From Diphasiastrum complanatum (Eukaryota; Streptophyta; Lycopodiopsida; Lycopodiales; Lycopodiaceae): a stretch of 64,000 nucleotides of DNA. This document shows, one piece after another, positions 15,001 to 46,739 of this stretch. The stretch's first letter is position 1. Every line of letters starts with the position of its first letter. The DNA lies in the NCBI GenBank assembly GCA_029204225.1, contig MU832104.1, positions 1 to 64,000 of the forward strand, read 5' to 3'. A program made the translations under genes and the position numbers. Under the pieces are notes generated by a model. It was given only the letters and a program-made list of their open reading frames with translations. It was not told the DNA's origin and did not search any database.

Positions 15001-18000
15001 TTGGAGCTAGAGAAGCAGCTGCGGGTTTTAATTCAAGCTAAAGGGCCGTTTGATCCTAATGTACGTGCTCTGCGAAGCAATATCCGGGAAAGTTATGAAG
15101 CAGTTATTCTTCAGGATCATGAATTTTCAGAGTTGCATGATGTGGAGCAAGCACTCTGGCGCTTGCACTACAAGCGCATTGAGGAGTTTAGAGCCAGGAT
15201 AAGAAAAACCATGGCAGCAGTGGGAGCAACCACACCAGCTCCACCTGTTCCTGCTGCTGGATCCAGAGTTGTGACAAGAAAAGAACCGCTACAAAAGTTA
15301 CAGGCTTTTTTTAAGAGCTTTTTGTCAGAGGCAACTGGATTCTATCATGATCTTATCATGAAGATTAGGGCAAAATATGGTTTATCACAAGAGTATGCAT
15401 CAGTCCAAGGGGAGCCTCAGTGGCCTGTGGATGAACAGGGCTCCACTAATTTGAAGCATTGTCAACTTTCTTGCCATCGATGCTTAATTTTTTTGGGAGA
15501 TCTTGCCCGGTACAAAGAACTACATAGTGAGGGAGGTGGGCATAGCCGTGATTGGTCTGTTGCTGCTGGATATTATCTTAAGGCAGCTTCTTTGTGGCCT
15601 TCCAGTGGAAATCCACATAATCAGGTAGCTTTAAATTTGCCACCGCTGGCTTTGAAGAATTATTTGATACAAATGTGTATAGACTTAGTGTCCCCCAAAA
15701 TTTTTCCAGCTTTAAAATTTTTCAAGGCAATCTCACTGTTGTTACTACTGATGCAGCTCGCTGTGTTGGCAACGTACGTCGGTGATGAATTACTTGCTGT
15801 ATATCAATATTTTCGGAGCCTTGCAGTTGATGGCCCATTTTTGACTGCAAGGGAAAATCTGGTTCTTTTGTTTGAGAAGGTATGTGTAGAGCACTTACAA
15901 TCATTTCATCTTGATCAACCATGAAAGTTGGGGCTTCAGTGAATTTGACAAATCAGCGAGCTTGGTTTAAGGTTCCAATCTGACACTAATGTGAACTTGA
16001 TGTTGTACTGTTATGTCTGTTTTGTAACTTTACTTGGTCGTAGGTTCATGGTGGATAATAGCTACCTAACTAGGAGCTGTTCTAACATAAGAGAATTTAT
16101 TGGGGTCTTCACTGACTGAATTCTGGGTGATGTCTATTTGGACGTGTTAACATAGAATTTTCTGGCTATACAGCTATTTTTACATAAACAGAACAGGATT
16201 GTGTTGCTCTTATAACAGAGTACTTTTTTCTTTAGTACCATGTGCTAATAGCCAGCCATGTATATCTGATACTGATTGTGTCACAGAATCGCCAACATTA
16301 CACTAAGCTTTCCAGTCTTATCCCTGGTACCATATTACCACCTTCAAAGCTGGACAGCTCAAAGGCCCCTGAAAAGGAAAAGACTGGTAAAGGAGAAAAG
16401 ATCCTCCCACTCAATGATGGTGCTGCAGTGAAGCTTGCATTGAAGGACATTAAGAAACCTGAGACAGATTCATGCTCAACCACTGTAACTATCGCAGAAA
16501 CAAGAAAAGCTTTTCGGATTCGTTTTGTGCGACTGAATGGCATACTGTTTACAAGGACCAGGTACACAAATTCCAATTATTGAGGTTGCAGAGAAAATTT
16601 ATTTAACTAGTCGTGACATGATATGCTTAGCTAGTTAGTGGTTGGATTGTTGTACAAGGATGCACTTAATTGAATTAGTTTTAAGCTTTGTAACATGGGA
16701 AGACATGTAGGGAAACCAAAGCCAGGGCAGTGAGTCTTTTCACTATAGACGATAATTTTGAGCTTTATGTTCCTGTATCATGAATATCAAGGTACTCATC
16801 TTTTTTCTATGGCATGCTCATCAGCTTGGAGACATTTTCAGAGGTTTACTCGGCAACGATGCGGGATTTGGAGCAACTTCTTTCATACGAGGATTCTAGC
16901 CTTGAAGCGGGGCTTGGTTTGGATCATCGTAGTGGGATTGGAGGTGGAAGTGGAGGGGTGGCAGGTGTTGTTCAACTTGTGTCTGTTTTGATATTCTCAG
17001 TTCACAATGTAAACTGGGGACTTGATGCTCACCAACCAACATATGCAGAAATCTTGCAACGTTCTGCCCTGTTTCAACATGCCTTCACAGCTACATTTGA
17101 ATGTACTGGCCGTCTTATGAGAAGATGTGCAGAGACAAAAGATGTTTCTGCAAGTCCCCTTCTTCCTGCAATGTTGATATTCTTGGAGTGGCTTGCTTGC
17201 AGGCCGGAGATGGCTGTGGGTAGTGAAATGGATGAGAAGCAGGCCAATGCAAGGTCTTTTTTCTGGAAACAAGCTGTCATTCTTCTTAATATTTTATCTG
17301 AAAAAGAAAAGGGGTATAATGATCTGACATCGAACTATCAGATTGTTTCTTCAAATGGAATGCGGGATGAATGTGGACTTGCTCTATGGGAGGATTTTGA
17401 ACTCAGGGGATTTATTCCATTAGTTCCTGCTCAGCTTGCTTTGGACTACTCTAGGCAGCCCTCTCGAGCAGGCTTAGGTGACAAGGAAGAAAGGAAAGTG
17501 CGTGTTCAGAGGATATTGGGGGCTGGGAAAGCTGTTGCCAACACTCTTGAAGAGAGTGGAAGAGGAATTTGTTTTGATGAAGAACTGGAGGAATTTTTTA
17601 TACCTGGGGAAAATCGAGAGAGAAAGATTACAGGGATGATAGATTCACTAAATAAGGACACTGTTGCTTTAACGAGCAAGGGCATTGTTGCAACAGATAA
17701 GTTTTCAGTCTCAGTTCATTTGCCGAATCAAAGCTTAGGTAATGGGCTGGCAAAAGCAGTGTCAGAGGAAAAGCAAAGCTCGGAGACTCAGAATATTTCA
17801 TCGTCTAAATCCTCTAGTGGAGAAGAGGAGGAAGAGGAACTCATTGTATTCAAGCCATTCTCGACAGTGAGCAAACCTTTTCCTCAACCATCTCAGCCAG
17901 ATTGGTTGCATCAGAACACTTTGGGCACCTCTAACAACCTTTTTGTGGTTCAGTCTTCATTGCATAATTCTAGTGCTGTTGGAAGTAACATACCTGAGAG

Positions 18001-19507
18001 TTCTAGTTTCCGGGAAGACTCCAAATACAATGTGTCTGCTCCTCATGCCTCAATCTCCAAAGTTATAGGATCAAATCTTGGTACATTTACCTCTGACCCT
18101 CTGGTAGATGAGTCAAGAGGCAGAACAGTATACGTCAGTGCAGCAAATCCTGTGAACAGTCTTAGCAGTTGCCTTACTAGCAGTGGACACACTGCACTCA
18201 TGGTATCTTCAGAATTGAATGTCCCCAAAAGCACTCTGGTTAAGGGTGATAACTCTCTGCAAAAAATTAATGCTCTAAGTAGTGCACTTGGACCTGTAAG
18301 CTCTGCAGTAGATTGGGCAAACCTTTATAGTGGATCTTCTGCTTACCCATCGTCTAACACACCTTGGCGTGCTCCTTCTGTTAATAGCATGTTTTCTAAT
18401 GGTCCTGACAGACTCTCTGCTAATGCAGCCACTGATTGGCATTCTAAACAAGCAGCAGTAAGCCATTCTTCATGGAGCTCAGAACTTGAGTCTCTAGCTA
18501 GAAGTGGCTTGACAGGGTTAGATCTTAGTGCTTCAAATGGAAGTCTGTCTGACAAACTAGCACCTAAAGCAGTTGCAGGAGGATCAAGCACTATTCCAGC
18601 TGTTCCTGATCAGGTTGTTGGAAAGGGAAATATTCCCATGGCGTCTTCCGTTGTCGCATTGACCTCCTCATTGCCAAATCAGGTGTACACCTTATCGACC
18701 ACAGCAATTCCTAATTTTGTTGGCTCTGTGGGGCACAATAAAGTTGAAGGACATTCAGCTTTGCCCTCTGCATTGATCTCTGAAACAGGTCACAGTCCTA
18801 TGTTGGAGACCCAGACAGCAGGGGCTGGAAATGCGGCACTTGCAAAGAGCACTCCTGGAGCTGGCACACAGGGCAGTGCTAGTTGGAATGTGAATAACAG
18901 CTCTAATGGTAGCTGGGTTCGACCCATGGGAATTCGACCACCACCTGGTTTTGGTCCTTTTCCAATGGCAAAGCCCACCACAAAAGTGGCGATAGAGCAT
19001 CATCAGGGAAGTTCTCAGTCACCAGAGAGTATTGCTGTAGGGGAAGGGGAGGAGCAGCATGTAGTAGATGATTATAGATGGCTGGATGATGATACAGCTA
19101 GCAAACCAATTGCAACTGAGACAGGCTATCAAAGATCGGGCTCTATAAATTCCTTGGGCTATGGAATCTGGTCTAATGCCGTATCAACCTCAGCAGCAGT
19201 TGCCTACCCATTTCCGGGCATGGGTTCCTCTCCCCATCGTGCACAGCAGAGTAGTCTTCAGCAGTTTCAGCATCAATTATTGATACAGCAGCAGCATGAT
19301 GCCCATCAGCAGCAGCTACATTTAGAAATTCAAAAGCAGCAGCAACAACAACAACACTTGTTGCTTATGCAACAGCAACAGCAACAGCAGCAGCAGCAGC
19401 TGCAGCAACAGAAGCAGCAGCAGCTGCAGCAACAGAAGCAACAGCAGCAGCTTCAACAACCCAGCTGGTTTGGGCAATATTGCTCTCAAGATCCTTTTGT
19501 GTCCTAA
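1558..19507 (+). CDS. SMG7: SMG7, EST1-family nonsense-mediated mRNA decay factor (five coding exons)
   Basis: SMG7 binds phosphorylated UPF1 through a 14-3-3-like TPR domain and commits premature-stop mRNAs to decay; in Arabidopsis it is also needed for meiotic exit. Proposed coding exons are 1558-1623, 14998-15624, 15757-15879, 16287-16561 and 16825-19507, joining in frame to about 1257 residues (the Arabidopsis protein is roughly 1060). Family landmarks are ALELEKQL, YEAVILQDHEFSELHDVEQALW and LHYKRIEEFRARI (residues about 23-95), WSVAAGYYLKAASLWP (about 210), LAVLATYVGDELLAVYQYF (about 232) and GILFTRT/SLETF across the exon 4/5 joint. There is no PIN nuclease domain, as expected for SMG7. 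The tail is Ser-rich with RPPPGFGP (about residue 1068), then a Gln-rich run, ending SQDPFVS. Exons 2-5 have canonical GT-AG borders; exon 1 would use a GC donor. No frameshift or stop interrupts it, so it is probably functional. Confidence 0.9.
2935..3178. repeat. AT-core repeat flanked by AACCGT/ACGGTT inverted motifs
   Basis: Both flanks are dense in AACCGT and its complement, including ACCGTGGTACGGTTCAC on the left (about 2969-2985) and GTGAACCGTACGGTTC on the right (about 3124-3139). They enclose a low-complexity core of ATTAATTAATTA, poly-C and poly-A. The heptamer ACAGTTC occurs at both outer edges (about 2940 and 3163). It looks like a miniature inverted-repeat DNA transposon. Family is unknown. 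Confidence 0.5.
3378..3449. repeat. (GA)n followed by (GAA)n microsatellite
   Basis: About 18 GA units run directly into about 12 GAA units. The GAA part may be the simple-repeat tail of the adjacent - strand LINE. Confidence 0.95.
3445..4505 (-). mobile_element. ORF1-only LINE ('half-LINE')
   Basis: Reading on the - strand, a leader (about 4505-4350) precedes a LINE ORF1 (4349-3624). This is followed directly by a 180-base 3' region that ends in a GAA-type simple-repeat tail at 3445. No reverse transcriptase ORF2 lies between ORF1 and the 3' end. The 3' region shares the pattern TTAACGTCTTTT, CCAAAaGG and ATAAGAC with the 3' end of the LINE at 4515-4660/9805-9922. In both copies GTCTT pairs with AAGAC to form a hairpin. 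This suggests a deletion derivative mobilised in trans. Confidence 0.6.
3624..4349 (-). pseudogene. LINE ORF1 protein (RNA-binding), one in-frame stop
   Basis: About 241 codons begin with MDFEWVTTRRKHKK. A coiled-coil-like segment (MEIQLQKHSYSS, LQEKVKMLEDENANLKE) is followed by a LINE ORF1 RNA-binding region: NIRVQGF, a stretch containing LLASLSYEEQEDVVKAAWRS, then VIFIRFKYTDYRDKVLKRRG and LKGSNIFVHED. ORF1 proteins coat LINE RNA and chaperone target-primed reverse transcription. A single TAG at 4112-4110 splits the frame; otherwise it is open. The product ends HFFIDAC just before the 3' region. Confidence 0.7.
4515..4660 (-). mobile_element. 3' end of a second LINE, separated from its coding part by an LTR insertion
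   Basis: On the - strand this carries the conserved LINE 3' hairpin (GTCTT/AAGAC, about 4541-4572) and a tail of repeated AATTCT units. The rest of the element resumes at 9805 beyond the LTR retrotransposon. The tail abuts the start of the half-LINE at about 4505, so two LINEs lie head to tail. Confidence 0.55.
4661..5578 (-). repeat. 3' LTR of the gag-only element
   Basis: 918 bp. Its sequence matches the LTR at 8883-9804 nearly base for base. For this - strand element it is the downstream LTR. Confidence 0.93.
5579..5945 (-). other. polypurine tract and 3' untranslated interior of the gag-only element
   Basis: On the - strand the tract CGAGGGGAGGA lies immediately before the LTR and would prime plus-strand DNA synthesis. 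The remaining bases up to the gag stop show no coding sense. Confidence 0.7.
5946..6260 (-). repeat. two-copy in-frame repeat at the gag C-terminus
   Basis: The segment with FNEG(Q/H)PTVT(D/N)QLTR and AELKEL occurs twice in tandem, with a period of about 140 bp. Both copies are in frame and similar, which indicates duplication inside the coding region. Confidence 0.8.
5946..8124 (-). pseudogene. broken Gypsy-type gag with zinc knuckle and protease-like domain
   Basis: The N-terminal part (8124-7549) is a gag capsid start ending in APPTFKGERDIRAVEDWF. Capsid sequence then continues in another frame (HMDHYFRLMNTPEEERTD at about 7594) and again in a third (7451-5946), so at least two frameshifts separate the pieces. 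The last piece has the capsid motif FRQSVWVIEDMSEADKTHYL, a zinc knuckle CFNCHQQGHSWRSCP, an acidic linker and a retropepsin-like domain, MVDLGASHNYLSEKL, in which the usual D-S/T-G reads DLG. The C-terminus holds a repeat of about 47 residues in two copies. No polymerase follows. Confidence 0.85.
8125..8867 (-). other. gag leader of the gag-only element
   Basis: About 740 bases lie between the primer-binding site and the gag start. Repeats such as ACCGTGCTT (about 8401, 8512, 8607, 8691 and 8768) recur at irregular spacing. No conserved reading frame was recognised; the region may hold packaging or dimerisation signals. Confidence 0.5.
8868..8880 (-). promoter_or_regulatory. primer-binding site (initiator tRNA-Met type)
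   Basis: The - strand reads TGGTATCAGAGCC, two bases inside the 5' LTR. This is the classic plant LTR-element primer site. Confidence 0.9.
8883..9804 (-). repeat. 5' LTR of the gag-only element
   Basis: 922 bp. It is the upstream LTR in - strand orientation and would hold the element's promoter. It pairs with 4661-5578. Confidence 0.93.
9805..10990 (-). pseudogene. LINE ORF2 C-terminal part with zinc-binding motif
   Basis: The frame 10885-9923 is open except for one TAG at 10624-10622, and a further stop lies just upstream near 10892. It encodes the post-RT region of a non-LTR reverse transcriptase: YLYPDLLSKMI, then LSFGLRYHMGQLRVSSHQLA and the CCHC motif CQLCFLQEVEDEFHFIFLC (C-x2-C-x9-H-x4-C), ending near LPASLQHAPLL. 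The RT core itself is missing or decayed beyond about 10990. Its 3' UTR continues from 9922 into 4660-4515 across the LTR insertion. Confidence 0.75.
11041..11310 (+). pseudogene. LINE reverse transcriptase remnant (YADD)
   Basis: The + strand reads FIYADDAALLSS followed by NTMKTTIMIF and later SFLGVLLQ-like residues. This order (catalytic YADD, then the N-x-KKTK-type motif) is that of a non-LTR polymerase palm. Frames shift several times. It is on the opposite strand to the LINE C-terminus just upstream, so two insertions meet here. Confidence 0.65.
11318..11466. repeat. 74-bp tandem duplication
   Basis: The unit starting GACTCAGGGACACTTCCC begins at 11319 and again at 11393. The copies are almost identical, differing by one T in a run, so the duplication is young compared with the decayed LINE around it. 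Confidence 0.9.
11467..11849. other. AT-rich intron DNA, probably LINE-derived, no gene
   Basis: Phrases such as CCATAGACTTATATGC and CAAGTCTTATGGG recall the region just after LINE RT domains, but no readable frame remains. Confidence 0.35.
11850..12008. repeat. palindrome-rich AT element with CGGTTTGAACCG motifs
   Basis: The perfect palindrome CGGTTTGAACCG (11869-11880) and GGTTCAAACCG (11903-11913) alternate with T-runs. Further CCGG and CCGCGG motifs follow, and the block ends with CAACTATG. The same octamer closes the element at 54133-54466. It is probably a miniature DNA transposon end. The left border is unclear. Confidence 0.45.
12009..12070. repeat. compound (CT)n(CA)n microsatellite
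   Basis: About 10 CT units, an ACTCA interruption, then about 18 CA units. Confidence 0.95.
12626..13165 (+). pseudogene. LINE reverse transcriptase fragment (YADD)
   Basis: The + strand encodes GCPLADIIIPILLYADDVVLLS, a polymerase palm with an intact YADD, then GLQRHLSALH. A frameshift near 12850 moves to the frame with LTVNTKKTKIMVFNT and VASYTYLGVLF. These are standard successive motifs of a non-LTR reverse transcriptase. Sequence relatedness to 11041-11310 suggests the same LINE family. Both ends are truncated. Confidence 0.8.
13166..14997. other. 3' part of SMG7 intron 1, no element recognised
   Basis: No convincing frame or repeat was seen. The splice acceptor CCATAAG precedes exon 2. 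Confidence 0.5.
19246..19464 (+). repeat. CAG-rich polyglutamine tract inside SMG7
   Basis: An in-frame run rich in CAG/CAA codes for long Gln stretches broken by Leu, His and Lys near the SMG7 C-terminus. Mixed CAG/CAA codons argue that the tract is kept at protein level. Length probably varies between individuals. Confidence 0.9.
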
Positions 19508-27532: not shown

Positions 27533-27931
27533 CTGAAGATTATGTAAAATGAATGCTGGTTTAAGGTAGAACATTTCAGTTGTCAAAGGCTGAATTTTGG
27601 GGGGAAATACTTGACTACCGAAGGATGAATGGAACTTTTCTTGGTCATTTTTGTCAAAATGAACATACGGTTGACATGAACTGGTAGCAGTAGGAATTTT
27701 GTTTCTAACCAGAAAAACTGTTGCTAAGATGCTGAAGATTATGTAAAATGAATGCTGGTTTAAGCTAGAACATTTCAGTTGCCATAGGCTGAGTTGTGGG
27801 AGGAAATACTTGACTACCAAAGGATGAATGGAACTTTTCTTGGTCATTTTTGTCAAAATGAACATACGGTTGACATGAACTGGTAGCAGTAGGAATTATC
27901 TTTCTAGCCAGAAAAACTGTTGCCAAGATGC
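27533..27931. repeat. 199-bp tandem duplication
   Basis: The unit starting CTGAAGATTATGTAAAATG occurs at 27533 and 27732. The copies are about 95% alike by eye. No coding sense in either. Confidence 0.92.
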
Positions 27932-30900
27932 TTTTATTAACATTGATGCACTATGCTTTATGTTGTCTTTTTGACAAGGTTTATTGCTGCAGGCAAATTG
28001 CCAACCTGAATTTACTGAGTAGCACATTTTGCACTGATTCTTTGAACTTGAGCTGCCAAGCAGAAGTGCATGAGTGCTGAACTCTAGCTAAAGCCCTCCT
28101 GAATTATCAGTTGCAAGCTAACTCTCAAGTACATCCCAAGTCATCTATTACTTGGTGAATTCGACATACGAAGTTTATGGAGGTTGAACTTGGCAAAGGT
28201 CAACTTATATTGAAATTTTATCCACATGTTTGTTCCCTGAATTTAGAATGCTTTGATATGACTTTCATAAGCAAAGCATCCTTCGTAAGAGCTTACAGGT
28301 GGCTTGTGTTTGCAGAGGACAATCACAATGAGGTTCTAGGGGTACATTACCAAACTTGTGCTTCCTTCAACTTCTAAGGATCAGGAGGATGGTGACTAAG
28401 ACCCTTGAATCTCAATCTGGTCGTAATCAAAGGCTTGAACGTGCTCATAACTCAAGTGAATTTGAAAGTTTGCAAGCTAAATTTCATGATGGAAGATGGC
28501 TTTTGTTGCAATGCATCATTAGAGCATGGAGCTGAGTTTGGATGGTGATGATTGACATGAAAAGATTATATGGAGATCATAAACAGAAGTTGCAACTCTG
28601 AGCTATGATGATTGTTTTTTCTTAATGTTGCGATTCCTGTTTCGCCTTTAGTAAAACTGATGGCATTTCGTGAGTTGAAGGACATCACAGATAAAGCCTT
28701 ATGTTGAAATGCTGTACCTTGGATCATGATATCAGAACTTCACTGGATGTTTCAAGAAGATACTCTTCGTGCACTGCAGAAGATATGCTGTGTGAATTCT
28801 CTGGGATTAGAAAAAAACACAGCTCTTACTTATCACATGGTTCTTGGTTACCACGCTTTTGGAGAAACAAAAGCCCTAATAATGTGTGTTGTTACTTTAA
28901 AATATAGTTTGAGATATTCAATGCATAGGAAATATTATGTCTGTGATGGTGCTCAGGATGTAGTCTTTCAGGCAATTACGTTACATTATCAATACTCTAG
29001 TTTCTAGAAAGACGATGGTACTGAACTACGAAAGCACTTTTGATCCACATATGTATACACATTGCTGTTAAAATTGTCTTGTTAATTTCTGTGGGTAGTT
29101 CTGCTAATTTCTGTTTTTTGGTCAATGTTTGGGCATGATTTGAGAACTCATACCTTTGCCTAGTATCCAATCTGAGAACAGCTTCTTGTCATTGATTGGT
29201 CGGCTTCTGATCATTGTTTATATGTCAACTACATATCTAGGTACTTGCTAATTTGCGTCTTTGAACATGTACGGTTATCAGGTCTTCCAATCAATATTTT
29301 TTATTTAAAGTCTAACTTCATACGAAGTTTTTAAAGCTTGTTATCATTGCATGGGCATGACATTGAATGAACCTAGAGCTTCCTTGGGCACTGGAGTATG
29401 CTTTATAGCATGGGGTGAGACATGTAGTATACGGTCTATGCTATGCAGGATGTAGTAAATGGTTTGATTGTGGATGTTTTTTTAGGGTTGCATCTGTTTT
29501 GTTCAATAACGTTTTAGATTGAAAATTGTCATGATAGCTATAATCAGAAGCTCCTCTCGGGTACAATGAAAGCCAGTATTTCTATAAAGGTTTCTGGAAG
29601 ACGTTTAGGTGATTAGACTAGCTGCTTGAGGGTGGCTGTGACTTTTTGATAGGAACTTCTACTTTATTCTGACAATGAAGTGGTTCATAGTTGATTGCAG
29701 GGAATACTCTTTCGTTGAACTGGTTAAAAATGTCATTTGCTTGGTTAGTAGAGTGAGGTGTTTTGAAGAAACTCCAGGTTCTTAACCTAGATGAACATCG
29801 ATGTATCTTATGTGAATACTGTTAAGAATTTCATTTGTTTGGATAGTAGAGAGGTGTTTTGAAGAACTGGGGTTTCCTTCCCTACTTCAAACCTTGTTTT
29901 TTTATTCTGTGCTCATAGCAGATGGTGCATTCTGCTGTAAGGTTCTGCTTTGCACACGCCAAGTAGTTTCAAGTTCAAGAAAGAGCTATGCAGACATTGT
30001 GTCAATCATGTTTTCTAGTCCATGACAGGAAAATTCCAGCTCCTTAAGGACTCGGATGTGGTAGAGACATGTCCTCTGATTAACAACAAGCTCCCTGTAC
30101 TTTCACCTCTTTTGGTTGTATATGTGTACCTGTATAATATATATGAACTACTGTGCAAGTTTTATGAAGCTAAAGGTTTAAACACGTACCGAAACCTTGT
30201 TCAAAAAATGGCTTTCTTGATGGTGATAGTGTTTCTACATATGCTTACATAACAAATTAAATATTGGTGAGGGTTTAACGTTGACACAGGTTCAAAGGTG
30301 TTGTTACTAGCTGTAATGTGGTGGGTCCAAGTGAATTGCAACTTTTCACATCAAGCAAGCCATTTGAGTAATGCTGTGTTAGAATACAAATTAGCTTAGG
30401 AAGACTCTCGGTTTCTTACTCTTTAATCTACAAATTGTGTGGCAGCTAGCTACAAATTGTGATACTTTTCTTACGGGAATCCTTCGTTTGTTCAATTATG
30501 AACTTGGATTTTCCAAAGTGAAGAACAACCCCCCCCCCCCCCCCCCCAATGAAGGTAAAAGTACATGCTGTCAGAACATGCTCCGAGTATCTAAGCGTTG
30601 AGCAGCAGAGTATTGGCCTTTCCAGATCCTAGGACTAGGCTACGTTGCACTGCCACTGGAAGTTGCAGGAGGGTACTCTCAAGAACACAGACCTTCAAGG
30701 CAATGTGCAATAAGGTAGCCATCTACTTAGCTTTTGGCTTTGATTTCATTTCACATGCTTTTTTGCTTTCTATGAACCACATATGGCCACAAAAGGTCTA
30801 TCTTCTGCTTTTTAGGCAGGTATCAAGTTTATGCTTCAACAAACATGGAGCTTTGAGGTGCACTTTCCAAAAGTACAACTTTTGGTTAGCTTTGAACATC

Positions 30901-31425: not shown

Positions 31426-31448
31426 GCCCCCCCCCCCCCCCCCCCCCC
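31426..31448. repeat. poly-C run of about 20 bases
   Basis: Homopolymer; its length is prone to sequencing error. Confidence 0.9.
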
Positions 31449-35800: not shown

Positions 35801-36600
35801 AAGTCTAAAAATTATGATATGCAATCTGGACAAATCCATGCCACTCAAGCCTCTTATAACCAAAACCCATTGACAATGCTAGAACATTTAATGCTAACAT
35901 AGTCCACTTATATCTAGTAGTATAACCTTATTATAGTCATTCCATTACTTTTTTTTTTCAAACTTTAAAGAGTAAGTGCATCATTAGACTAATAATAACT
36001 CGCTAAAATAGATTATCAGCTTGAGCAACAAGAAAGACGGAATGAAGAATAAACATAGCAATGTTGACACAAATCTGAACGCAGAACAAAGAGCTATTAT
36101 CAGATTAAGTATAACAAATATACATGTCAATAATGTAGTAGGACACAAGACAATAGTGGACGAAACCGCGTGCTCTACAAAGGTAATTCAATCTGTAAGA
36201 GGAATGAACCTATTATTGACAAATAAAGAATCAATGCACAAGGCATCTACTTCATCTATCTCTGATAAGCTTCTGATGCTATATTTACACACACTTGTTC
36301 TCGTGTTCTTTCTCATCAATCTGAATACGCAAGTGGTATTCAATATATATACACAATGTTACAGGTGTGTAGATGAAGAAAGTACAAAGTGGATGTGCTG
36401 TCTGTAGGAGATCGTGGGTGGCTGTTGTCGTTGTCAAGCCTGTTAGCACAGTTGCATGGGGTGAGCGTGAAAGACTGTGACGTCAGCTTTTGCTGAGATG
36501 AACGTTGGTGAAGATTTTGCCTTTTCATCGCCTGTGAGAATTTACTTGTATTCTACAGACAGTTGTGTTTTATTCGTTTGTCTTATTTTGCATGTAAATA
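35801..36600. other. unrecognised AT-rich DNA
   Basis: A 128-codon + frame (36021-36407) matches no family known to me. Its second half looks like degraded LTR sequence. Nothing can be supported. Confidence 0.35.
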
Positions 36601-36649
36601 TGCAGACTGTGCGACAACATGAGTAAAAATGCAGCATGAATAGAGGCAG

Positions 36650-37540
36650 ATTAAAATGGGATTTAGGAGAGTAGAGGTGATAAAATTGAACCATCACCTT
36701 TCAACAGTGTGGCCTTCTCGTGTGCATCTCATGCAGGTCTTCTTCTCACCATTTTGCTATCTCAGTTTATTCTGCTCTTCCATTTGCCTTCTTTGGCTTC
36801 CTCTGACTGTTGTTTTCGATCTTGTCTTTGGTTTGACTCCCTCTTAGACTTGAAATTCTTCTTTTGCTTCTCTTTGTTGTTGTAGAGATCTTGATCAGAG
36901 CTATCCTTGTCATCAAGGTGTTCACGGGCTTCCACCTCCTCTCTGATCTAGATTAAAGCCTTTTCAAGGGTCATCTATGGATCTTTAGCAAGCAATGTTC
37001 AGGTCGTCTGAAACAATCTTGGTAGAGCTCGCAGCAGGCATGTGAGCTACTTTTCTGCTGAGACTGCATTCTCTATTCCGGAGTTGTGTAGTGAAAGGAA
37101 CAGGTCCGTCATTCTTCTGATGAAGGAGGTGAGGTCTTTACCATCCCATTTCAGATTGGTCAGTTGATCTTCAAGAAGCATAATTTGGCTTCGTGATTTC
37201 ATTTGAAATTTGGTCAGCAAAGTATCCCACATTTCTCTCGCATTGGAGAGAGTGGCTAGATCAAGCATCAAGCTATCTTTGATGGAGAAAGATAGGACAA
37301 TTACTGCCTTGTCATTTCTCTCCATTCCCATAGCTGTTTGCCAGTCGTTGTGGTCATATCTTATGTGCCATCAACCCAAGGCCATAGACCTTCTCCTTTC
37401 AGTATGAGAGAATTCTTCACCTTCCATGCTAAAACGTTTGATCCTGAGGAGTCAAAGATCATGTAGATATTTGATTGAATGCTGCTAATGGATGCCATAG
37501 CTTGAAGGAATCAGACAAGGCTCTGATAGAGCTGAAGGAT
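36650..37540 (-). pseudogene. Copia gag on the - strand (5' half of the split element)
   Basis: Reading on the - strand from about 37490, the gag (UBN2-type) runs through LSFSIKDSLMLDLATLSNAR, MWDTLLTKFQMKSRSQIMLL and TNLKWDGKDLTSFIRRM, then a decayed continuation with REEVEAREHLDDKD and a zinc knuckle CMRCTREGHTVER in which the last Cys codon has become a stop (about 36700). The element stops here instead of running into protease. The 5' LTR and primer site lie just upstream in this orientation. Confidence 0.8.
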
Positions 37541-37553
37541 CGCTTTGATACCA
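37541..37553 (-). promoter_or_regulatory. primer-binding site of the - strand Copia half
   Basis: TGGTATCAAAGCG on the - strand, one base inside the LTR end GAACA. It resembles the initiator tRNA-Met primer site. Confidence 0.75.
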
Positions 37554-37554
37554 C

Positions 37555-38737
37555 TGTTCGAGATCAACCACCCCTTGATATCACTGATGGGAAGTTGGGA
37601 TCTCGGGTTGAACCGAAGATGAAGTTCGAGTAGAGCCGACTTGACAGAGATAGCTACTGCTACCGACTACGGTCTAATTCTCTTCCAAGCCCCAGATCGT
37701 CTCTAGCGGTCTTTTGTAAAACTAAACTTGTAGACAGCAGATAATGCTGAGTAAAAAAATAGCAAAAAGTTATCTACTACTAGCATGCATTTCAATATTG
37801 CAGATCATACACATTACAGAACAAAGCATTGCAGAAATTGCTTCTATTGTCAGAACTGAATTTACAATATTTTCTTGAGCACTGTCTGTTTCTCCAGATT
37901 AGCGTGTTGGTGCAAGAGAGATGTTCTCTCTCACGAGTAATATGACTAGCTCCTGCTAATATGTAAACTCACTTTGGAGCTATCTCAAAACTTTTACAGT
38001 TATGTGTGTTCAGTATCTGTGATCTCTTTCCCCTTATTTTTTGCATCCTTCGTTGATCCTTTATGTGATCAATCCAAGAACTAATTAAGTTAAAGCTCTA
38101 ATCAAAAGAAATGCATTAGGTTTAGTCAAAACTGATTCTGGTTTCCTGTCACTGTCCCTCCGTGCATCAGCCGCATTCTGCCCATTACTTCACGCTGCAG
38201 AACTTCGCACTTTGCTAAAAGATGCTTTAAGGGCAGTGTCGCATTTTTCAAGAGCAATGTCACATTTTTAAGGGCACCTTCGCATTTTTTCGGAAGGCAT
38301 TTGGAGACGGTGTCACTTTTTCCGAAGGGTGAAAAACCCGACAGTGTCGCTTTTTTTTTCGAAGGGCGAAAAAGCGCGACAGGCCTGAAAAACATTTTCT
38401 AAGGCATTTAGAGACTGACTTGTTTTTTTTCGAAATGCAAAAAATGTGACAGTAGGCCTAAAAACATTTCTAAGGCATTTATAAGATAGTGTCGCATTTT
38501 TCCGAAATGCAAAAAATGCGACAATGTTGGGACAGTTGGCCAAAATTATTTTCTAAGTGTTTTTTTACTTAGTGATGTATTTTCCTCATGACCAAAAATT
38601 GTGAACTGTGCAACGAAACAGTTCAAAAATGCAGACTGTGCGAAACATAGTTCAAAATGCAACAATCAGGAAAAACAGCAAGGAAAGACTAAGAAAAATG
38701 CTAAGGCTTTGAAGGATAGAAATTCTTAGTTTCTTCA
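37555..38737 (-). repeat. Copia LTR, - strand (5' LTR of the split element)
   Basis: It begins TGAAGAAACT at 38737 and ends GAACA at 37555, about 1183 bp. It is an inverted copy of the LTR at 45173-46333. It contains an array of degenerate hairpins with TGTCGCATTTTT and AAATGCGACA arms (38270-38525). Confidence 0.88.
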
Positions 38738-38989
38738 CTGAATAACCATGGCTATCTACGAGGCCTCAAATTGATCTGCATAGTTTTATCTATCTACTTA
38801 TTTTGAACAGGGTATCAAAGTTTTCATTCTTTGTGTGAATCACTAAGGTCCATCATTTATTCTTCCAACAAGAATAAGTCCTTGATACTAAAGGTGGTAG
38901 TTTGATATACCAAGTACTGACTAAAACTTATTGTACTTTGTACAAGCAACAATAGATATTTGATGTAGATATTAGAATCATATATGAGT

Positions 38990-40010
38990 TTGATAAAAAT
39001 TCACAACAAAGTGAATCACAATCAATTCTAAAAGTGGAGGATGCACATTTGATTGATCTAGATCTAAACTATGAGCTAGAATCAAGACTAGTTACCAAAA
39101 CTAGCTTTTCTTGGCATTTATCTCCACAAAAGGCACATAGATCTAATCAAACACTCCAAATAAAGGTACAGAAAGCTTCCTAGACCTGTAATCAACTTCA
39201 CTACCTTCGAATCAATGCAATAAATTCATAAGATCACTCACATATAGTAGTACTAACTCGCACACAAAGACAATGTGAAGGAAAGTGGAAAATCTTGACT
39301 TTTTTTTATCATTATACAACAAGATTTACTTTGATATATATATACATATCCTTCTCGAATCTAGTTTTTATTTCTAATCTTCATCCATATGTGACATAAA
39401 CCTAAAGTAAATACCCTAAAATAGGTCATCAACCCTAGACAAGACAAAAATTGCTAGAAATAGTCCTACATTCTCTCTACAATGCTAATGTACATTTTGT
39501 ACTCATCAGTAAAGATGCCATTTGACCTCGTGTAATGTATTAACATGATTATTCATAGGGCTAAGCATCTATACATGTGGCATATGCCACATCACAACTT
39601 ACAAGTGGAATTACATCAAACTAGACAAGCTAGAATTGTGAAATTTCAATACTCCTCCTCACAATCTAGCTGGATGATAACATGGCTTTATTAATTAAGC
39701 TAAGGTCTGATCTAAGCTTAAAAAATATAGCCTTTTGAAGAGGCTTTTTCAATATATCAGCAATGCATTCTTCACTTGAAACATGCTCCAATGAGACCTC
39801 CTTAGCTTGGACTTTCTCCCTTACAAAATGGTGAGAAACTTCTATGTGTTTGCTCCTTGCATGGTGGATTGGATTGGATGCTAGGTGTTGGGCTGAGATG
39901 TTATCATTGTAGATGAGTGGAATGACACTCGATCTGATCACTTTGAGCTCCTCAAGCAACCTCTTGATCCAAAGCACCTCCTTGGTTGTGGTTGTTAGTG
40001 GCCATGTTGC
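38990..40010 (-). pseudogene. 3' end of another - strand Copia (RNase H end plus LTR)
   Basis: The frame 39977-39666 carries the Copia RNase H C-terminus (HARSKHIEVSHHFVREKVQA, ECIADILKKPLQKA). A purine tract GAGGAGGAG follows, then an LTR starting at about 39651 and running down to about 38990. The element is truncated at about 40010. It is related to the - strand Copia at 42-44 kb. Confidence 0.75.
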
Positions 40011-40089
40011 TCTCTTTGGCTACCATCACAAATTGGTTAGGATCAACAAAAGCATCAAGCTTAAACAACCTCGCAAAACCTTGTTCCTC

Positions 40090-40682
40090 TTGTTATGATC
40101 TTTCCATTCTTAGAGTGCATCCATTGTCACAAAAAGGGTCACGCAACTATTGACTGCTACCAAAATCCTAGAAACAAGAAAGCTCAGTGTAGACGGGAGA
40201 GCAACAATAGCTCATCCTACATGGAGGAACCCGAGTCCTCCAAGATGGTCGAAGACAGAGTCAACAACGGCAAGAACCCAACAGCTTACTTGTGTACTGA
40301 TGTCTGTGCAACATCAACTTCAGATACACAAGAAATAATTCTTGATTCAGGTGCACCGTCACACTTCGTGACAACAAGACACATGATCACTAATTATTAA
40401 GAATCAGAATCTTCCAGATATATAATCTTGGAAGATGGTTCCAGACACAAAGTCAGCGGAACTGGAGCACTGTGGTTAAGCACCAAAGGAAGAGACAGAA
40501 GGCACGATGACACTCTATACGTGCCCAGTTTTCAGAATGAGCCAGTTCAATATCAATCCAGGCCCTACACACTGGAAGATAGCCAAGAGAATTCTGCAAT
40601 ACCTTCAATAGATGAAGGATTATGGGTTGTGTTTCTCTCAGCATGAAGGATTTTTGATCAAATCCTAAAACGATGCAAACTG
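40090..40682 (+). pseudogene. Copia zinc knuckle and protease fused to the RT end (+ half of the split element)
   Basis: CIHCHKKGHATIDCYQNP (about 40119) is a zinc knuckle and IILDSGAPSHFVTTRH (about 40340) the protease active site. At about 40520-40530 the reading changes abruptly to the end of the RT domain (PTHWKIAKRILQYLQ, then KDYGLCFSQHEGFLI in a second frame). Integrase and nearly all of RT are therefore deleted. RNase H continues after the nested Copia at 44710. One stop lies in the protease part. Confidence 0.8.
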
Positions 40683-40946
40683 TGTTAGAAATCAATGATA
40701 AACTTCATTGTTACACTTCCTAGTTATTGTTTACGATGTACTTTATTACTAGCTGTAACTAGCCATAGGCTAGTCTAGTAGTCTACTCCTAGGTTCTCTC
40801 TCTCTATCAGGGTTCATGGTTTATTTGTGCATTTTACATTCAGTATGAGTTAGAATGATAGAGTGATATTACATGTTCTTCTTCCGTCTCCCTACTTGGT
40901 GATTGCTTATGGTGAATGCTTGATGTTACATTTCTGATTGTTTACA
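40683..40946 (+). repeat. 5' LTR of nested Copia
   Basis: 264 bp, direct copy of 44446-44709, immediately followed by the primer site. Confidence 0.92.
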
Positions 40947-41457
40947 TGGTATAAGAGCTAAGATAGTCCTGCGTGCCTGATCAGTGGATACAACTTATCA
41001 CAGGCTCTACAACGAAGTGAGAAAGTCCTTCATAGGAGGTGAAAGCTTGGAGATACAAAAACGACTGGAAGAAATCCTTCTTGATGTAATTTGCAGGTTT
41101 TGGAGCTCACAGTTATTAGTGGAGAACGAAGACATAGTCCCGAAGGCATGGGAAAGGCCAGGGCAGCATCAGACAAATTGAAAATCTGTTGAGTGGGAAA
41201 AGTTTTACAATATTTTTTTTAGTCTTTGTGAAAAGTGTCATTTGTCAGAGATGTGCCAAGAAATCTCTCATTTGTTTGTTTGGGCTACTGCAAATCACAC
41301 CAAATAGTGTCTCATACCTTTCACATTACTGATATCTGTCTATTTGAATGATCACTTGTTTCGAAATCTAAGCAAAGAGGAGGCGGCGTAGCCACCGCGC
41401 CAAAGTAGGAAATCTGGAATATTCCCTCTGAAAGATCTTATATATATATATTTTTTT

Positions 41458-41694
41458 CCGTACCAATATCGGATCCAAGCGCGCTAGTTGAAGAGAAACC
41501 CTAGTAGTCGTACATCCGCGCTCCAGTCCGATATTGTCCGTACTGATATCGGATCCAAGCGCACGAGCTAAAGAAAATTCCGAGCAGTTGTACATCCGCG
41601 CTCCAGTCCGATATCGCATGCTCCAATATCGGATCCACGCGCACAAGTTAAAGAGGATCCTGAGCAGCCGTACTTTCGTGATCCATTCCGATAT
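41458..41694. repeat. three 80-bp tandem repeats with inverted ends in the Copia leader
   Basis: Three units start near 41458, 41538 and 41617. Each has ATATCGGATCCA(A/C)GCGC near its start and (T/A)TCCGATAT near its end, so each can fold into a stem. They lie in the untranslated leader just before the gag start at 41768. Confidence 0.85.
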
Positions 41695-41767
41695 CAGGTG
41701 TATAACCATATAAATATACAGTTCTGTGGTGTGATAAATTACTTGATCTGGACTCATCTGTTCAGTA

Positions 41768-41990
41768 ATGACAACTCTAAGCGAGAGTGTCCTCAATGAG
41801 TCAAGCAAATTGGAAGGAGCCGACAACTATGCAGTTTGGAAATTCAAACTGAAAAACATTTTGATGGAAAAGGAGCTATGGGAGATCGTGACAGGTAAAG
41901 AGACAAGGCCAGTGATTGAAGAAGATCAGCGGGCATGCGACAGGAGAAAACGAAAAGCACAAAACTGTCAAATTTCAGAGTTTATGGACT
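41768..41990 (+). pseudogene. truncated Copia gag start
   Basis: MTTLSESVLNESSKLEGADN then YAVWKFKLKNILMEKELWEI is the N-terminal Copia gag (DUF4219/UBN2 start). It stops after about 60 sensible residues where the - strand Copia fragment begins at about 41985. The same family of gag starts the element at 59741. Confidence 0.85.
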
Positions 41991-42632
41991 GAAATTGATC
42001 TACAAATGATCACAAAGAGTGATTGGTAGCTTGGGATCTTGATCTATATCAAGACTAGCTTCCAAATCTAGCTTCTACTTGACAATCTTTGTGTTTCCAA
42101 GCAAGAACAATAAAAAAAGATGATCCATGGCTTCACACGTGTGAAGTATAGCTATTGTACGGCCTGATAACAAAGAAATAGTTTACTTATCATTTACAAA
42201 GCATTCATCCACAAAGAAAGTGCTTAAAAGAGTCAAAAAACAATGATAGCTTCACAAACCAAGATTTCTCATCATTAGCTCAATAATGGACCCATCATGG
42301 ATCAAGTACAAATTCACCATAATCTCTCTCTAATCTGCATCCAACACGTGTAGGACATCTCATTGTACTTTTTATATCCACTTTGGATAAGATCTATCAA
42401 GTTTGCCACATCATCCATTGGTGGTTTGTGTTGACCTTCTAGATTCCTACAATCTAGGACCTAACTCCTATAGTTTAGGAGATGTCATATTAGACTCAAA
42501 TGAAAGCTAATCAAACTCAATCTGAATATTACAAGTGTCATTTCACACATGTGAACAGGTCCTCACACGTGTGGATCCACATAGATGTCTAATATTCATC
42601 AAAAACCATGTGAAAATTGCTAAATTCTAACA
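41989..42632 (-). repeat. LTR of the - strand Copia fragment
   Basis: On the - strand the LTR begins TGTTAGAATTTAGC at 42632, next to the purine tract TTGAGGAGGAG, and appears to end near 41989. ACACGTGTGA-type palindromes recur inside it (42134-42148, 42335-42345, 42543-42573). Confidence 0.7.
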
Positions 42633-42639
42633 CTCCTCC

Positions 42640-43957
42640 TCAATTTTTACATGATACAACTATAGTACATCTATCTACAACACCTAAGGCTGATCTTAAC
42701 TTGATAAATGAAGCCTTTGGCAAGGCTTTAGTGAGTAGATCAGCAAGGCAATCTGAAGAAGACACATGATGTAGCTTGATCTCCTTTGCTTGAACCTTTT
42801 CCCTCACAAAATGGTGAGCAATCTCTATGTGCTTGCTCCTTGCATGGAATGTGGGATTGGTTGCTAATGCTTGGCTTGATTGGTTGTCACAAAATATTGT
42901 TGGCTGATCCTCGGCCTCCATGACTTGTAGTTCCACCAAAAGCCTCTTCAACCATAGAATCTCCTTTGTTGTGGATGTTAGTGCCTTGTATTCCGATTCG
43001 GTTGAAGATAGAGAGATAGTATCTTGCTTGTTGGAAAGCCAAGACACTATGCCATTGCAAAGAAAGGTAACAAAAGCACTTGTGGACCACCTTATCACCT
43101 GCAAAATTAGCATTCGAATATGCCCTTAAGTCTAGATTAGATCCTTCATTTAAAATGCCAAAGTTCTTGGTGGCCGAGATGTACCTCAACACCCTTTTTG
43201 CATTTTTCCAATGACAAACCAATGGATTTTGCATAGATTGGCTTAGTTTGCCTACACTGTAATTTAGATCAGGTCTAGTTATAGTAAGATAGATCAAAGA
43301 GCCTACAAGTCTCCTATATAGTGTGATGTCCTCAAAGGATGCTTCATCATCACTATTGGAAACTTTTACATTTTGCTCCATAGGAGTATCTACTCCTTTA
43401 CAGTCTTTCATTTCAAACTTTTCTAAGATAGAAGAAGCATATTTGGATTGACAAAGAAAACTCAAATCCTTGTCTCTTGAAACTTCTATGCCTAATATGA
43501 AATGAAGATTACAAAGATCTACCATCTTAAATTCCTTAAACAATGCTACTTTCACTTCTTGTATACCATCAAGATCATTTCCACTAAGGATAATGTCATC
43601 AACATACAAAATGAGAATGATGATTTTATCATCATTAAATCTTAAGTACAAAGAAGGATCATAAGCACTTACAACAAACTTAATAAAGTTTAAGAAGGTA
43701 TTCAACCTAGAGTACCAAGCTCTAGGTGCTTGCTTAAGCCCATAAAGGCTTCTTAGCAACAAACACACTTTTTCCTCTTGATCTTCTTTGATGAAGCCCT
43801 CGGGTTGCCTCATGAAAATCTCCTCTTCCAAATATCCATTGAGAAAAGCATTAGTCACATCAAGTTGAAATAGAGGCCAATTGAAAGTAGTTGCAAGAGA
43901 AATAATCAACCTTATGAAAACTAGCTTAGCAACAGGAGTATGATCAGCCTGCGCCAA
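42640..43957 (-). pseudogene. Copia RT and RNase H fragment, - strand
   Basis: The frame 43957-42887 covers most of RT: LDVTNAFLNGYLEEEIF, LLRSLYGLKQAPRAWYSRLN, catalytic LYVDDIILSGND (intact) and LHFILGIEVSRD, then RPDLNYSVGKLSQSMQNP. One frameshift near 43100 leads to the RNase H end (SSTESEYKALTSTTKEILWL, HARSKHIEIAHHFVREK). It is cut at 43957 in the middle of the RT N-terminus and lies inside the + strand nested Copia. The RT is in unusually good condition. Confidence 0.9.
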
Positions 43958-44445
43958 TATTGATAGGATATACAGATGCTGACTGGGCAGGTAATATTGA
44001 TGACAGAAGGTCTACCAATGGTCATACATTCAGTTATGGTACAGTTGCAGTTTCATGGAGCAGCAAAAAGCAACCTACAATAGCCTTATCCTCGACGGAA
44101 GCTGAATATCTAGCACTCAGCAATGTTGCACAAGAAGCGGTATGGTTAAGAAGATTCTTGTGGATTTAGGTCAATTCCAGGTGGATGCAACTACTATATC
44201 GTGCGACAATCAAAGCTGCATTCACCTTGCCAAAAATCCAGTTTTACATGCTCGAACCAAGCACATCGAAATACATTATCATTTTGTTCGAGAGAAAATT
44301 CTTGATGGAGCCATTGATCTTGTTTTTCTGTAAATCTGAAAATCAAGTGGCAGATATTTTTACAAAGTCATTAGGTAGATGTAAATTTGAAAAGTTTTGT
44401 ACTCTACTAGGAATAGAAGAATGTAATTTTATCATTGAGGGAGAG
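43958..44445 (+). pseudogene. RNase H end of the nested Copia
   Basis: [20 protein letters not shown] then [20 protein letters not shown] is the Copia RNase H with its catalytic Asp. A frameshift near 44150-44180 continues with TISCDNQSCIHLAKNP and HARTKHIEIHYHFVREKI, and another near 44325 with SENQVADIFTKSLG. It ends at the purine tract before the 3' LTR. Confidence 0.88.
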
Positions 44446-44709
44446 TGTTAGAAATCAATGATAAACTTCATTGTTACACTTCCTAGTTACTGTTTATGAT
44501 GTACTTTATTACTAGCTGTAACTAGCCGTAGGCTAGTCTAGTTGTCTACTCCTAGGTTCTCCCTCTCTATTAGGGTTCAGGGTTTATTTGTACATTTTAC
44601 ATTCAGTATGAGTTAGAGTGATGGAGTGATATTGCGTGTTCTTCTTCCGTCTCCCTACTTGGTGATTGCTTATGGTGAATGCTTGATGTTGCATTTCTGA
44701 TTGTTTACA
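44446..44709 (+). repeat. 3' LTR of nested Copia
   Basis: 264 bp, matches 40683-40946. Confidence 0.92.
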
Positions 44710-45128
44710 AACTGGACATCCTTGAAAGATGACTACAAGAGCATCTCAGGAGGATGCACAATAGTAGCCGGTGCAGCTGTGATATGGGTCAGCAGGAAGC
44801 AGACCATAACTGCGCAATCATCCTGAGAAGCAGAGTATGTTGCAGCAACCAAAATGGCAAACGAGCTTACATGGATCAAGCAGTTCCTTGACGTACTGGG
44901 AGAGAACTCCAACGAGCCACTACTATTGTTCATGGATAACACATCCACCATTCATTTGACGAAGGATCCAGTGTTTCATTCGAGGACGAAACACATTGCT
45001 ATCAGATATCCTCTGATAAGAGATCTGATTGAGAAAGATAGACTGAAGACCAAGTCTATTCCAACGAAGCAAATCGTGGCTGATATTTTCACAAAGCATC
45101 TTGACAAGACAATTTTTGAGAAGTAGCA
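44710..45128 (+). pseudogene. RNase H of the split Copia, resumed after the nested insertion
   Basis: Before the nested element the frame ends in NDAN; after it continues WTSLKDDYKSISGGCTIVAG, VIWVSRKQ and, after one stop, EAEYVAATKMANELTWIKQF, then MDNTSTIHLTKDPVFHSRTK and VADIFTKHLDKTIFEK. This is a typical Copia RNase H, followed by a purine tract and an LTR. Confidence 0.9.
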
Positions 45129-45172
45129 TGCAAGCCTAGGAATAAAAAAAAATTCCAACTTTGAGAGGGAGC

Positions 45173-46333
45173 TGAAGAAACTAAAAGTTTCTATCCTTCA
45201 AAGCCTTAGTATTTTTATTAGTGTTTCCTTGCTGTTTTTCCTGAATGTTGCATTTTGAACTATGTTTCGCATAGTCTGCATTTTTGAACTGTTTCGTCGC
45301 ACACTTCGCAATTTTTGTTCATGAGAAAAATACATCACTAAGTCAAAAACACTTAGAAAATAATTCTGGCCAACTCTCCCAATACTGTCGCATTTTTTGC
45401 ATTTCGGGAATATGCGACACTGTCTTATAAATGCCTTAGAAATGTTTTCTGGCCTACTGTCGCATTTTTCGCATTTCGAAAAAAGTGACACAGTCTCTAA
45501 ATGCCTTAGAAAATATTGTTCAGGCCTGTCGCACTTTTTCGCCCTTCAAAAAAAAAGCGACACTATCGGGTTTCTCGCCCTTCGGAAAAAGCGACACTGT
45601 CTCCAAATGCCTTCTGGAAAAATGTGAAGGTGCCCTTAAAAATGCGACATTGCCCTTAAAATCGCGAAGGCGTCTTTTAGCAAAGTAATAAGGTCTGCAA
45701 CATCAAGTAACGAGCAGAAAGCGGCTGATGCACGGAGGACAGTGACAGGAAACCAGGATCAGTTTTGATTAAGCCTAATGCATTTCTTTTGATTAGAGCT
45801 TTAACTTAATCAGTTCCTTGGATTGATCACATAAAGGATCAATGAAGGATACAAAAAAAGGGGAAAGAGATCACGGATACAGAACAGACAAAACTGTAAA
45901 AGTTTTGAGATAGCTCCAGAGTGAGTTTACAGATTAGTGGTAGCTAGTCATATTACTCGTGAGAGAGAACATCTCTCTTGCACCAACGCGCTCATCTGGG
46001 GAAACAGACAATGCTCAAGAAAATATTATAAATTCAGTTCTGACAATAGAAGCGATTTCTACAATGCTTTGTTTTGTAATGTGTATGATCTGCAATATTG
46101 GAATACATGCTAGCAGTAGATAACTTTCTATTGTTGTTTTACTCAACATTATTTTTACAAGTTTAATTTTACAACAGATTGTCAGAGGCGATCTGGGGCT
46201 TGGAAGAGAATCAGACCGTAGTCAGTAGCAGTAGCTACGGCTACCAAGTCGGCTCTATCCGATCTTCATTTTTGGTTCAACCCGAGATCCCAACTTCTCA
46301 TCAGTGGTATCAAGGGGTGATTGATCCCGAACA
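45173..46333 (+). repeat. Copia LTR, + strand (3' LTR of the split element)
   Basis: It begins TGAAGAAACT after GAGAGGGAGC and ends CCCGAACA, about 1161 bp. It is the inverted counterpart of 37555-38737. The bases after it (TTTAG) do not look like a primer site, as expected for a 3' LTR. It contains four degenerate TGTCGCA/TGCGACA hairpins at about 45388-45597. Confidence 0.88.
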
Positions 46334-46739
46334 TTTAGATGGGTGGTTAATTCGTCATTGTACAAAACAACGTCGGGCAAAACAAAGGCAGAGATGAGCA
46401 GTATCTCCCACACGGGACTCCACTTATCATCAATGGTTGTCAATTACAGACTTATATCTCTGCTAAATGTGTTGTACATGTGGAGTTGCATGTCCAATCA
46501 TCCCTCAAGCATTAGAATGATAAAAGGCAATAGTGATTGGTGCATCATCAAGAGAAGGAATACTTGGCAAAGTAGGCGGACGGCCATGGGCAAGTAAGAA
46601 TGTAAAAACATTTGTGCTAGAACTGTTAGAGCTATTATGATGGTACTTGGCAAAACATAAATGTTGATCTCAATCACATCTAGTAGAAACAAAATGACAC
46701 AAGTAATACTCTAAGACACAATTAATGACCATAGATTGT

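Follow-up and report, generated by a model that had tools for sequence, protein, structure and literature searches.

A Copia-type retrotransposon in Diphasiastrum complanatum split into two opposed pieces, most probably by a 3.4 kb inversion

Passages of a rice pan-genome inversion index place LTR-retrotransposon sequence at the breakpoints of small inversions in plants (PMC10030860). Primate microinversions, as summarised in one study, comprise 59 human-chimpanzee cases of 17-33 bp, each flanked by inverted repeats (PMC8755829). The word 'inversion' is absent from the main text of a survey of rice LTR elements (PMC1940013), and a search of titles and abstract openings found nothing describing the case presented here, which lies in a 64,000-nucleotide stretch of D. 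complanatum DNA (the window). It resembles the rice inversions, in the terms of those passages, in having a breakpoint within an LTR element; there, however, inversions were found by genome comparison, whereas the window needs one genome, in which other copies of the element give the unbroken order (PMC10030860). With the primate events, as that summary presents them, it shares the apparent turning of a local DNA segment in place, but it measures 3.4 kb and has no above-chance inverted match within 40 bp of its junctions (PMC8755829).

The window contains a Copia-type LTR element broken into two opposed pieces, LTR-PBS-gag on the minus strand (38737-36685) and knuckle-protease-RNase H-PPT-LTR on the plus strand (40111-40682 and 44715-46333). 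A preliminary description, made from the sequence alone, had recognised an LTR with gag on one strand and a protease/RNase H body with the same LTR on the other, and this arrangement is borne out by the LTR alignment, a gag domain match, a PBS-like motif and a purine tract. The opposed pieces stand, but their inner ends, first put at about 36650 and 40090, are refined to 36685 and 40111 by comparison with contiguous copies of the family. In the minus-strand piece, the part that would have been inverted, the LTR (37555-38737) is followed by PBS, leader and gag, the last running through the first zinc knuckle (36685-37554). This region matches contiguous copies up to 36685, and a Pfam search identified in it Retrotran_gag_2 (PF14223; 37370-37050, minus strand, E 3.3e-11), a Copia-type gag. 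The plus-strand piece, which would have kept its orientation, carries the second zinc knuckle, protease and the start of the RNase H stretch (40111-40682), then the remaining RNase H and PPT (44715-45172) and the other LTR (45173-46333). Neither the protease piece nor the RNase H pieces, taken separately, matched a Pfam model at 0.01, and we take them to be such from their motifs. On the same basis, RNase H in the C11 copy presumably comes after protease, integrase and the beginning of RT, in that order; relative to the C11 copy, integrase and most of RT are absent from the window copy.

The PBS-like sequence TGGTATCAAAGC, a near match to what we take to be the initiator-Met tRNA PBS, adjoins the minus-strand LTR on its 3' side, and the purine tract GAGAGGGAGC lies just before 45173, 5' of the plus-strand LTR. 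Because the PBS-like motif follows one LTR and the purine tract precedes the other, the minus-strand LTR is the 5' LTR and the plus-strand LTR the 3' LTR of the element. Read by eye, the left half terminates in the first knuckle, C-M-R-C-T-R-E-G-H-T-V-E-R, with a stop in the position of the last cysteine; the right half opens just before the second knuckle, C-I-H-C-H-K-K-G-H-A-T-I-D-C.

The right half had first been described as a protease/RNase H body with an LTR. These parts are upheld, but it encloses a separate nested Copia-type element on the plus strand (40683-44709), not noticed at first, whose LTRs (40683-40946 and 44446-44709) differ at 13 of 264 sites. The nested element is flanked by the target duplication AACTG/AACTG; one copy forms the last 5 bp of the interrupted segment (40678-40682), which resumes after the other (44710-44714). 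Inside it lies a third-level Copia on the minus strand (41966-43938; Pfam RVT_2 at 44011-42890, E 2.5e-55), shortened by an apparent deletion of ~7.1 kb relative to a second copy of the region on contig C5.

Both parts of the split element run in one direction at 9 of the 22 other loci read in this genome. In all nine contiguous copies (C11, C15, C4 and six more) the sequences corresponding to the window's two ends are separated by 7 bp (CCAAAGA). The halves are complementary and do not overlap, as had been proposed for a split between the knuckles, and the nine loci provide unrearranged copies for comparison. No full gag of a separate copy lies beside either half: the C11 internal region, compared with the window by blast, gave five matches, all to the complementary pieces. 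The C11 copy itself has CTTCC on both flanks. Identities of the two halves to seven relatives, one value per half, were 90.8/91.8% (C11), 90.6/89.5% (C15), 90.4/89.4% (C4), 90.5/89.7% (C15b), 90.5/90.3% (C18), 89.5/91.8% (C8) and 87.5/87.5% (C17). The halves are thus similarly distant from all seven, which supports their derivation from what would be one broken element.

The two LTRs of the window, which have TG..CA ends and are now oppositely oriented, align from end to end with 109 mismatches in 1158 aligned sites and 28 gap positions (K2P 0.102, or 0.104 on a MAFFT alignment). They are sisters in both trees (support 0.976 with 14 sequences and 89.9/89 with 20), so they do not belong to clearly different subfamilies. 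When the 3' half of the LTR is taken by itself, the right LTR is closer to C11_5 (0.098) than to its partner (0.110), and the left LTR is closer to C9b (0.108) than to the right one. These comparisons give modest support to the view that the two are probably a pair. Outside the 5' LTR stands TTCAG (38738-38742, minus strand, read 38742-38738) and outside the 3' LTR TTTAG (46334-46338, plus strand). These pentamers, already noted in the preliminary description, would be the two copies of a target duplication; they agree at four of five bases, and a match of at least four has a chance probability of 0.017.

Two separate truncated insertions of one family, one without the part after gag and the other without the part before the second knuckle, might by chance have ended up head to head. 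This repetitive family gives numerous partial LTR matches, and the window LTRs are 10% apart, other copies being equally close over part of their length. Such an origin is nevertheless highly improbable, since two truncations would have to have fallen independently no more than 7 bp apart, judged against nine of nine contiguous copies, in addition to matching flank pentamers and LTRs that pair in the trees.

Most probably, the element was split after insertion by a 3.4 kb inversion in place, closed by end joining. One Copia-type retrotransposon would have inserted in plus orientation amid older retrotransposon debris, duplicating 5 bp of its target. The chromosome would afterwards have broken twice, in gag between its zinc knuckles and in the left flank ~1.4 kb beyond the 5' LTR, and the intervening 3.4 kb (36685-40110) would have been rejoined in the opposite direction. 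End joining would have removed 7 bp of the element and, if the host-side break was at the boundary described below, at least about 7 bp of the host side. An inversion of a segment with the 5' LTR, gag and left flank had been suggested at the outset, and the contiguous copies, LTR pairing and pentamers support it; that it took place in situ, as a single event and by this repair route is what we infer.

The former left flank carried in the inversion would be 38743-40110 (minus strand), consisting of ~250 bp and then an internally deleted Copia, Copia-H. The 'Copia fragment' reported earlier at 38990-40010 is indeed Copia, but its extent changes: RNase H and a 3' LTR occupy 39998-38991, the LTR ending at 38991, and a protease-to-pre-integrase piece follows at 40110-39999. 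We take these pieces to be one element. At the right junction (40110/40111) the interior of Copia-H meets the split element immediately ahead of its second knuckle. At the left junction (36684/36685) gag abuts an LTR of another high-copy family, LTR-X, 7 bp short of that LTR's terminus; this 3'-truncated minus-strand copy, lacking the terminal 7 bp, forms the far-left flank (35985-36684). The 7-bp shortfall of the far-left flank and the start of the near-left flank inside Copia-H would both follow if LTR-X sat in Copia-H and the break fell there. None of the copies fetched has 36684 and 40110 as neighbours. Four retrieved copies of Copia-H continue upstream of the break with sequence that has no match elsewhere in the window, and a further deletion must therefore be added. 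That the break should fall within 7 bp of the end of an LTR is a coincidence too, and counts against the inversion model. Two candidates in this region were rejected: a plus-strand Copia at 33.2-35.75 kb as the other half of Copia-H (comparison with two relatives of Copia-H found no match in it) and a U3-like stretch at 36596-36637 as a 3' LTR of the left piece (it is part of LTR-X instead). A search for paralogues of the right flank found, besides C5, only relatives of 65-73% identity, none spanning the site. The upstream stretches of five of these relatives had no match to the near-left flank that would represent an empty site, the scores being reached by 2 to 26 of 100 shuffles.

Retroelement cDNAs can bear inversions and captured pieces, and the contact of the left break with the LTR-X terminus would suit an element rearranged before or during integration, by inverted cDNA, self-integration or a template switch capturing the Copia-H fragment. 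That course predicts a target duplication flanking 36684 and 46334. The bases there differ (ATAAA at 36680-36684, TTTAG on the right), and it is the pentamers outside the two LTRs that match instead, at 4/5; rearrangement of the cDNA is therefore disfavoured, and we consider it even less probable than two insertions.

Both junctions recur in the near-identical second copy at C5:31.80-31.82 Mb, ungapped over 161 bp at 99.4% (left) and 151 bp at 100% (right). Although C5 and the window contig (C586) belong to one assembly, a near-identical copy lies on each, and the junctions are known from assembled sequence alone, a misjoin of collapsed repeats is the least probable explanation, as C5 keeps the same order and orientation while having differences of its own, including the indel of ~7.1 kb.

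For the preferred reading, inversion after insertion, recombination between inverted repeats was rejected as the route: no exact inverted match longer than 5 bp occurs within 40 bp of the junctions, while among 1000 shuffles 743 had a longest match of at least 6 bp, 250 one of 5 bp and 7 one of 4 bp. One 14-bp exact inverted match (36743-36756/39837-39824, E 0.010) occurs in the 1 kb around each junction; it is not taken as the cause because its two arms are internal to the inverted segment and at a distance from the junctions. The 7-bp inverted repeat AGGTGAT/ATCACCT straddling the left junction is attributed to chance, because its left arm belongs to LTR-X and differs elsewhere: of eight LTR-X copies fetched, seven have GGAGAT, as does C5, and one has GGAAGAT.

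Another copy of the split family, at C4:8187106-8194637 (8.187-8.195 Mb), is likewise split, with one half reversed together with its flank. It is the mirror of the window: what is reversed here is the 3' half plus the right flank (2.65 kb), the 5' LTR is truncated, and the halves meet with an overlap of about 5 bp in C11 coordinates, at a break in what we take to be the integrase region. The family LTR search gave 45 matches, with 40 of 2057 candidates scored. Among the matches listed, two close LTRs of the family occur at three separate loci: C11, C4 and the window, the last counted together with its C5 duplicate. The window and C4, two of the three listed loci, are split in this way; the window was chosen for being split, and the number is far too small for claiming a high rate.

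The LTR-X end within 7 bp of the break and the cut and reversed C4 copy raise the idea that the break was not random, and that small inversions in this genome may start from broken ends supplied by retroelement termini or by integrations aborted at old elements. We regard this as unlikely; if true, split elements would be common enough for measuring the rate of small inversions. The event is of a known kind, ordinary genome wear, and the element itself, an old one of plant type, is not of a new kind. The locus is a clean case in which the repeat copies of a single genome, with no need of a related species, expose a probable kilobase inversion and the scar of its repair down to the base. Counting oppositely oriented LTR pairs with complementary halves would allow the rate of inversion in a large plant-like genome to be estimated.

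The two opposed LTRs of the split element, at 37555-38737 on the minus strand and 45173-46333 on the plus strand, could be aligned end to end, differing at 109 of 1158 sites (K2P 0.102). On its 3′ side the minus-strand LTR had a primer-binding-like motif and then a Copia-type gag, which matched Pfam Retrotran_gag_2 at E 3.3e-11; ahead of the plus-strand LTR lay coding sequence resembling RNase H, together with a purine tract. The 5′ and 3′ halves of the element are therefore placed back to back. The protease and RNase H pieces, which we take to be such from their motifs, gave no Pfam match at 0.01 when taken alone.

To compare the halves with other copies, we used the 1.74 Gb genome (5176 contigs), which has plant-like content and in which the window is C586:1-64000; each search scored 40 candidates, so copy counts are lower bounds. 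Both halves were contiguous in three of eight relatives (C11, C15 and C4, leaving out the C5 duplicate) and in six of 15 further stretches, one of which (C13) repeats a locus among the first eight. At these nine of 22 loci the match to the gag half ends at window position 36685 and that to the protease half begins at 40111, the two being separated by exactly 7 bp (CCAAAGA). The nine are not all independent: the printed junction is identical in L038, L039 and L040, and L035 is similar to the C15 copy. The stretches read at the other 13 loci lacked one or both halves, and held solo LTRs, truncated copies, a distant relative (C17), the protease part alone (C12) or a misplaced stretch. The halves are thus complementary to the base. 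The preliminary description had stated that they make one element without overlap; its placing of the first zinc knuckle in the left half and the second in the right was also borne out, the last cysteine position of the first knuckle being a stop.

Both halves showed similar identities to the same seven relatives, and the two LTRs grouped together in trees of 14 sequences (FastTree support 0.976) and 20 sequences (IQ-TREE SH-aLRT 89.9, UFBoot 89). Counting against a single element, other copies were as close as the partner LTR, or closer, when the 3′ half of the LTR was taken alone. The pentamers outside the LTRs agree at four of five positions (chance 0.017), and the bases at 36680-36684 and 46334-46338 do not match; together these observations argue that the rearrangement followed integration. 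In the control copy, C11, the LTRs are 0.058 apart and CTTCC is present on both sides. Overall, we strongly favour an LTR element split by in-place inversion after its insertion.

The preliminary description had assigned a protease/RNase H body to the plus strand. It is present there, but it is not single, as a separate element at 40683-44709 sits inside it, leaving 40111-40682 and 44715-46333 (plus strand) as the 3′ part proper. The nested element has 264-bp LTRs with 13 differences (K2P 0.051) and a perfect target duplication, AACTG, at 40678-40682 and 44710-44714. It contains a third Copia on the minus strand, and an 80-bp unit in three tandem copies at 41457-41695. Compared with the C11 copy, the split element lacks integrase and most of the reverse transcriptase, which suggests that it was either defective already when inserted or deleted afterwards.

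A near-identical copy of the region was found, reversed, at C5:31784001-31834000. Aligned segments over 30-48 kb were 98.3-99.6% identical, except for a secondary LTR match at 95.6%, and both junctions were kept gap-free in the assembled sequence (161 bp at 99.4% and 151 bp at 100%). The C5 copy has about 7.1 kb extra in the third-level Copia (C5:31804000-31811120, against window 43938-43985); relative to it, the window has apparently undergone a deletion here. LTR distances between C5 and the window's contig were 0.007-0.008, against 0.10 for the insertion, which would place the inversion after the insertion and before the two copies separated; it could have come before or after the nested insertion (0.051). 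The two copies may be haplotypes or a recent duplication.

Among the 45 matches listed (best 40 of 2057 candidates), three separate loci carried two close LTRs of this family: C4, C11 and the window, the last counted together with its C5 duplicate. The C4 copy (8187106-8194637, read within L016, C4:8186001-8196000) is split in mirror fashion, apparently by inversion of its 3′ half together with 2.65 kb of flank, which now lies between the halves. Its minus-strand part comprises the 5′ LTR, gag, protease and some of integrase, ending at C11-internal position 1872; its plus-strand part (8187106-8189061) starts at position 1868 and continues through the 3′ LTR, an overlap of about 5 bp in C11 coordinates. 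Its two LTR pieces also paired in the trees (FastTree 0.878, 14 sequences; IQ-TREE 89/88, 20 sequences).

As to the host sequence at the break, the near-left flank proved to be a Copia (Copia-H) when read in the orientation of the element. None of its 53 non-self matches (best 40 of 5992 candidates) began before query position 113 or passed 1137; the part from RNase H to the 3′ LTR is accordingly set at 39998-38991. The next 112 bp, up to the junction, matched at least 38 other loci at 89-91%, and at least 31 of these matches spanned all 116 bases of the query (best 40 of 567 candidates). In four fetched copies this stretch next to the right junction belongs to what is presumably, from its motifs, the protease to pre-integrase region, and runs on upstream. 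We therefore read Copia-H as an element with an internal deletion, broken off mid-gene at 40110.

The far-left flank, at 35985-36684, comes from another family of high copy number (LTR-X), of which it is a truncated LTR; by genome search it matched at least 38 other loci, and at least 33 of these matches reached the last base of the query (best 40 of 9931 candidates). All eight fetched copies extend 7 bp further before diverging; six have TCCAACA there, one TCCAATA and one TCCGACG. In two (C22, C1), a run of pyrimidines, which is a poly-purine tract when read on the opposite strand, follows TCCAACA on the inner side; the junction end of LTR-X is therefore the start of U3, on the minus strand. 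Over about 42 bp, the U3 regions of LTR-X and the split element are 81-83% identical (score reached by 0 of 300 shuffles). On the simplest reading, LTR-X had previously inserted into Copia-H at this point, and the break would have fallen at their boundary with loss of the terminal 7 bp of LTR-X. The rest of Copia-H was not found within the window, and in the C5 region its only further matches were 67-77% relatives inside the C5-only stretch and one 37-bp match; this reading therefore requires an additional deletion.

The right flank, apart from its C5 copy, had relatives at 65-73% identity, whose matches began no earlier than query position 25 among those listed (best 40 candidates). Upstream stretches of five of them matched the near-left flank no better than shuffled controls did (13, 9, 26, 2 and 19 of 100 shuffles reached the score); an empty site was not found among them.

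Elsewhere in the window, an open frame of 907 codons with a glutamine-rich end (16784-19507, plus strand) resembles, we presume, an SMG7/EST1-type plant gene. A 199-bp unit occurs in two tandem copies (27533-27932, 94% matches), and runs of about 20 C at 30529-30547 and 31427-31448 are possibly assembly artefacts.

Inverted matches in the 40 bp around the junctions did not exceed chance. Together with the small losses, this fits two breaks that would have been rejoined by end joining. In the rice inversion index (PMC10030860), 59 of 100 examined inversions likewise had no clear inverted repeat longer than 10 bp, and breakpoints were enriched in LTR elements. The event in the window is accordingly of a known kind.
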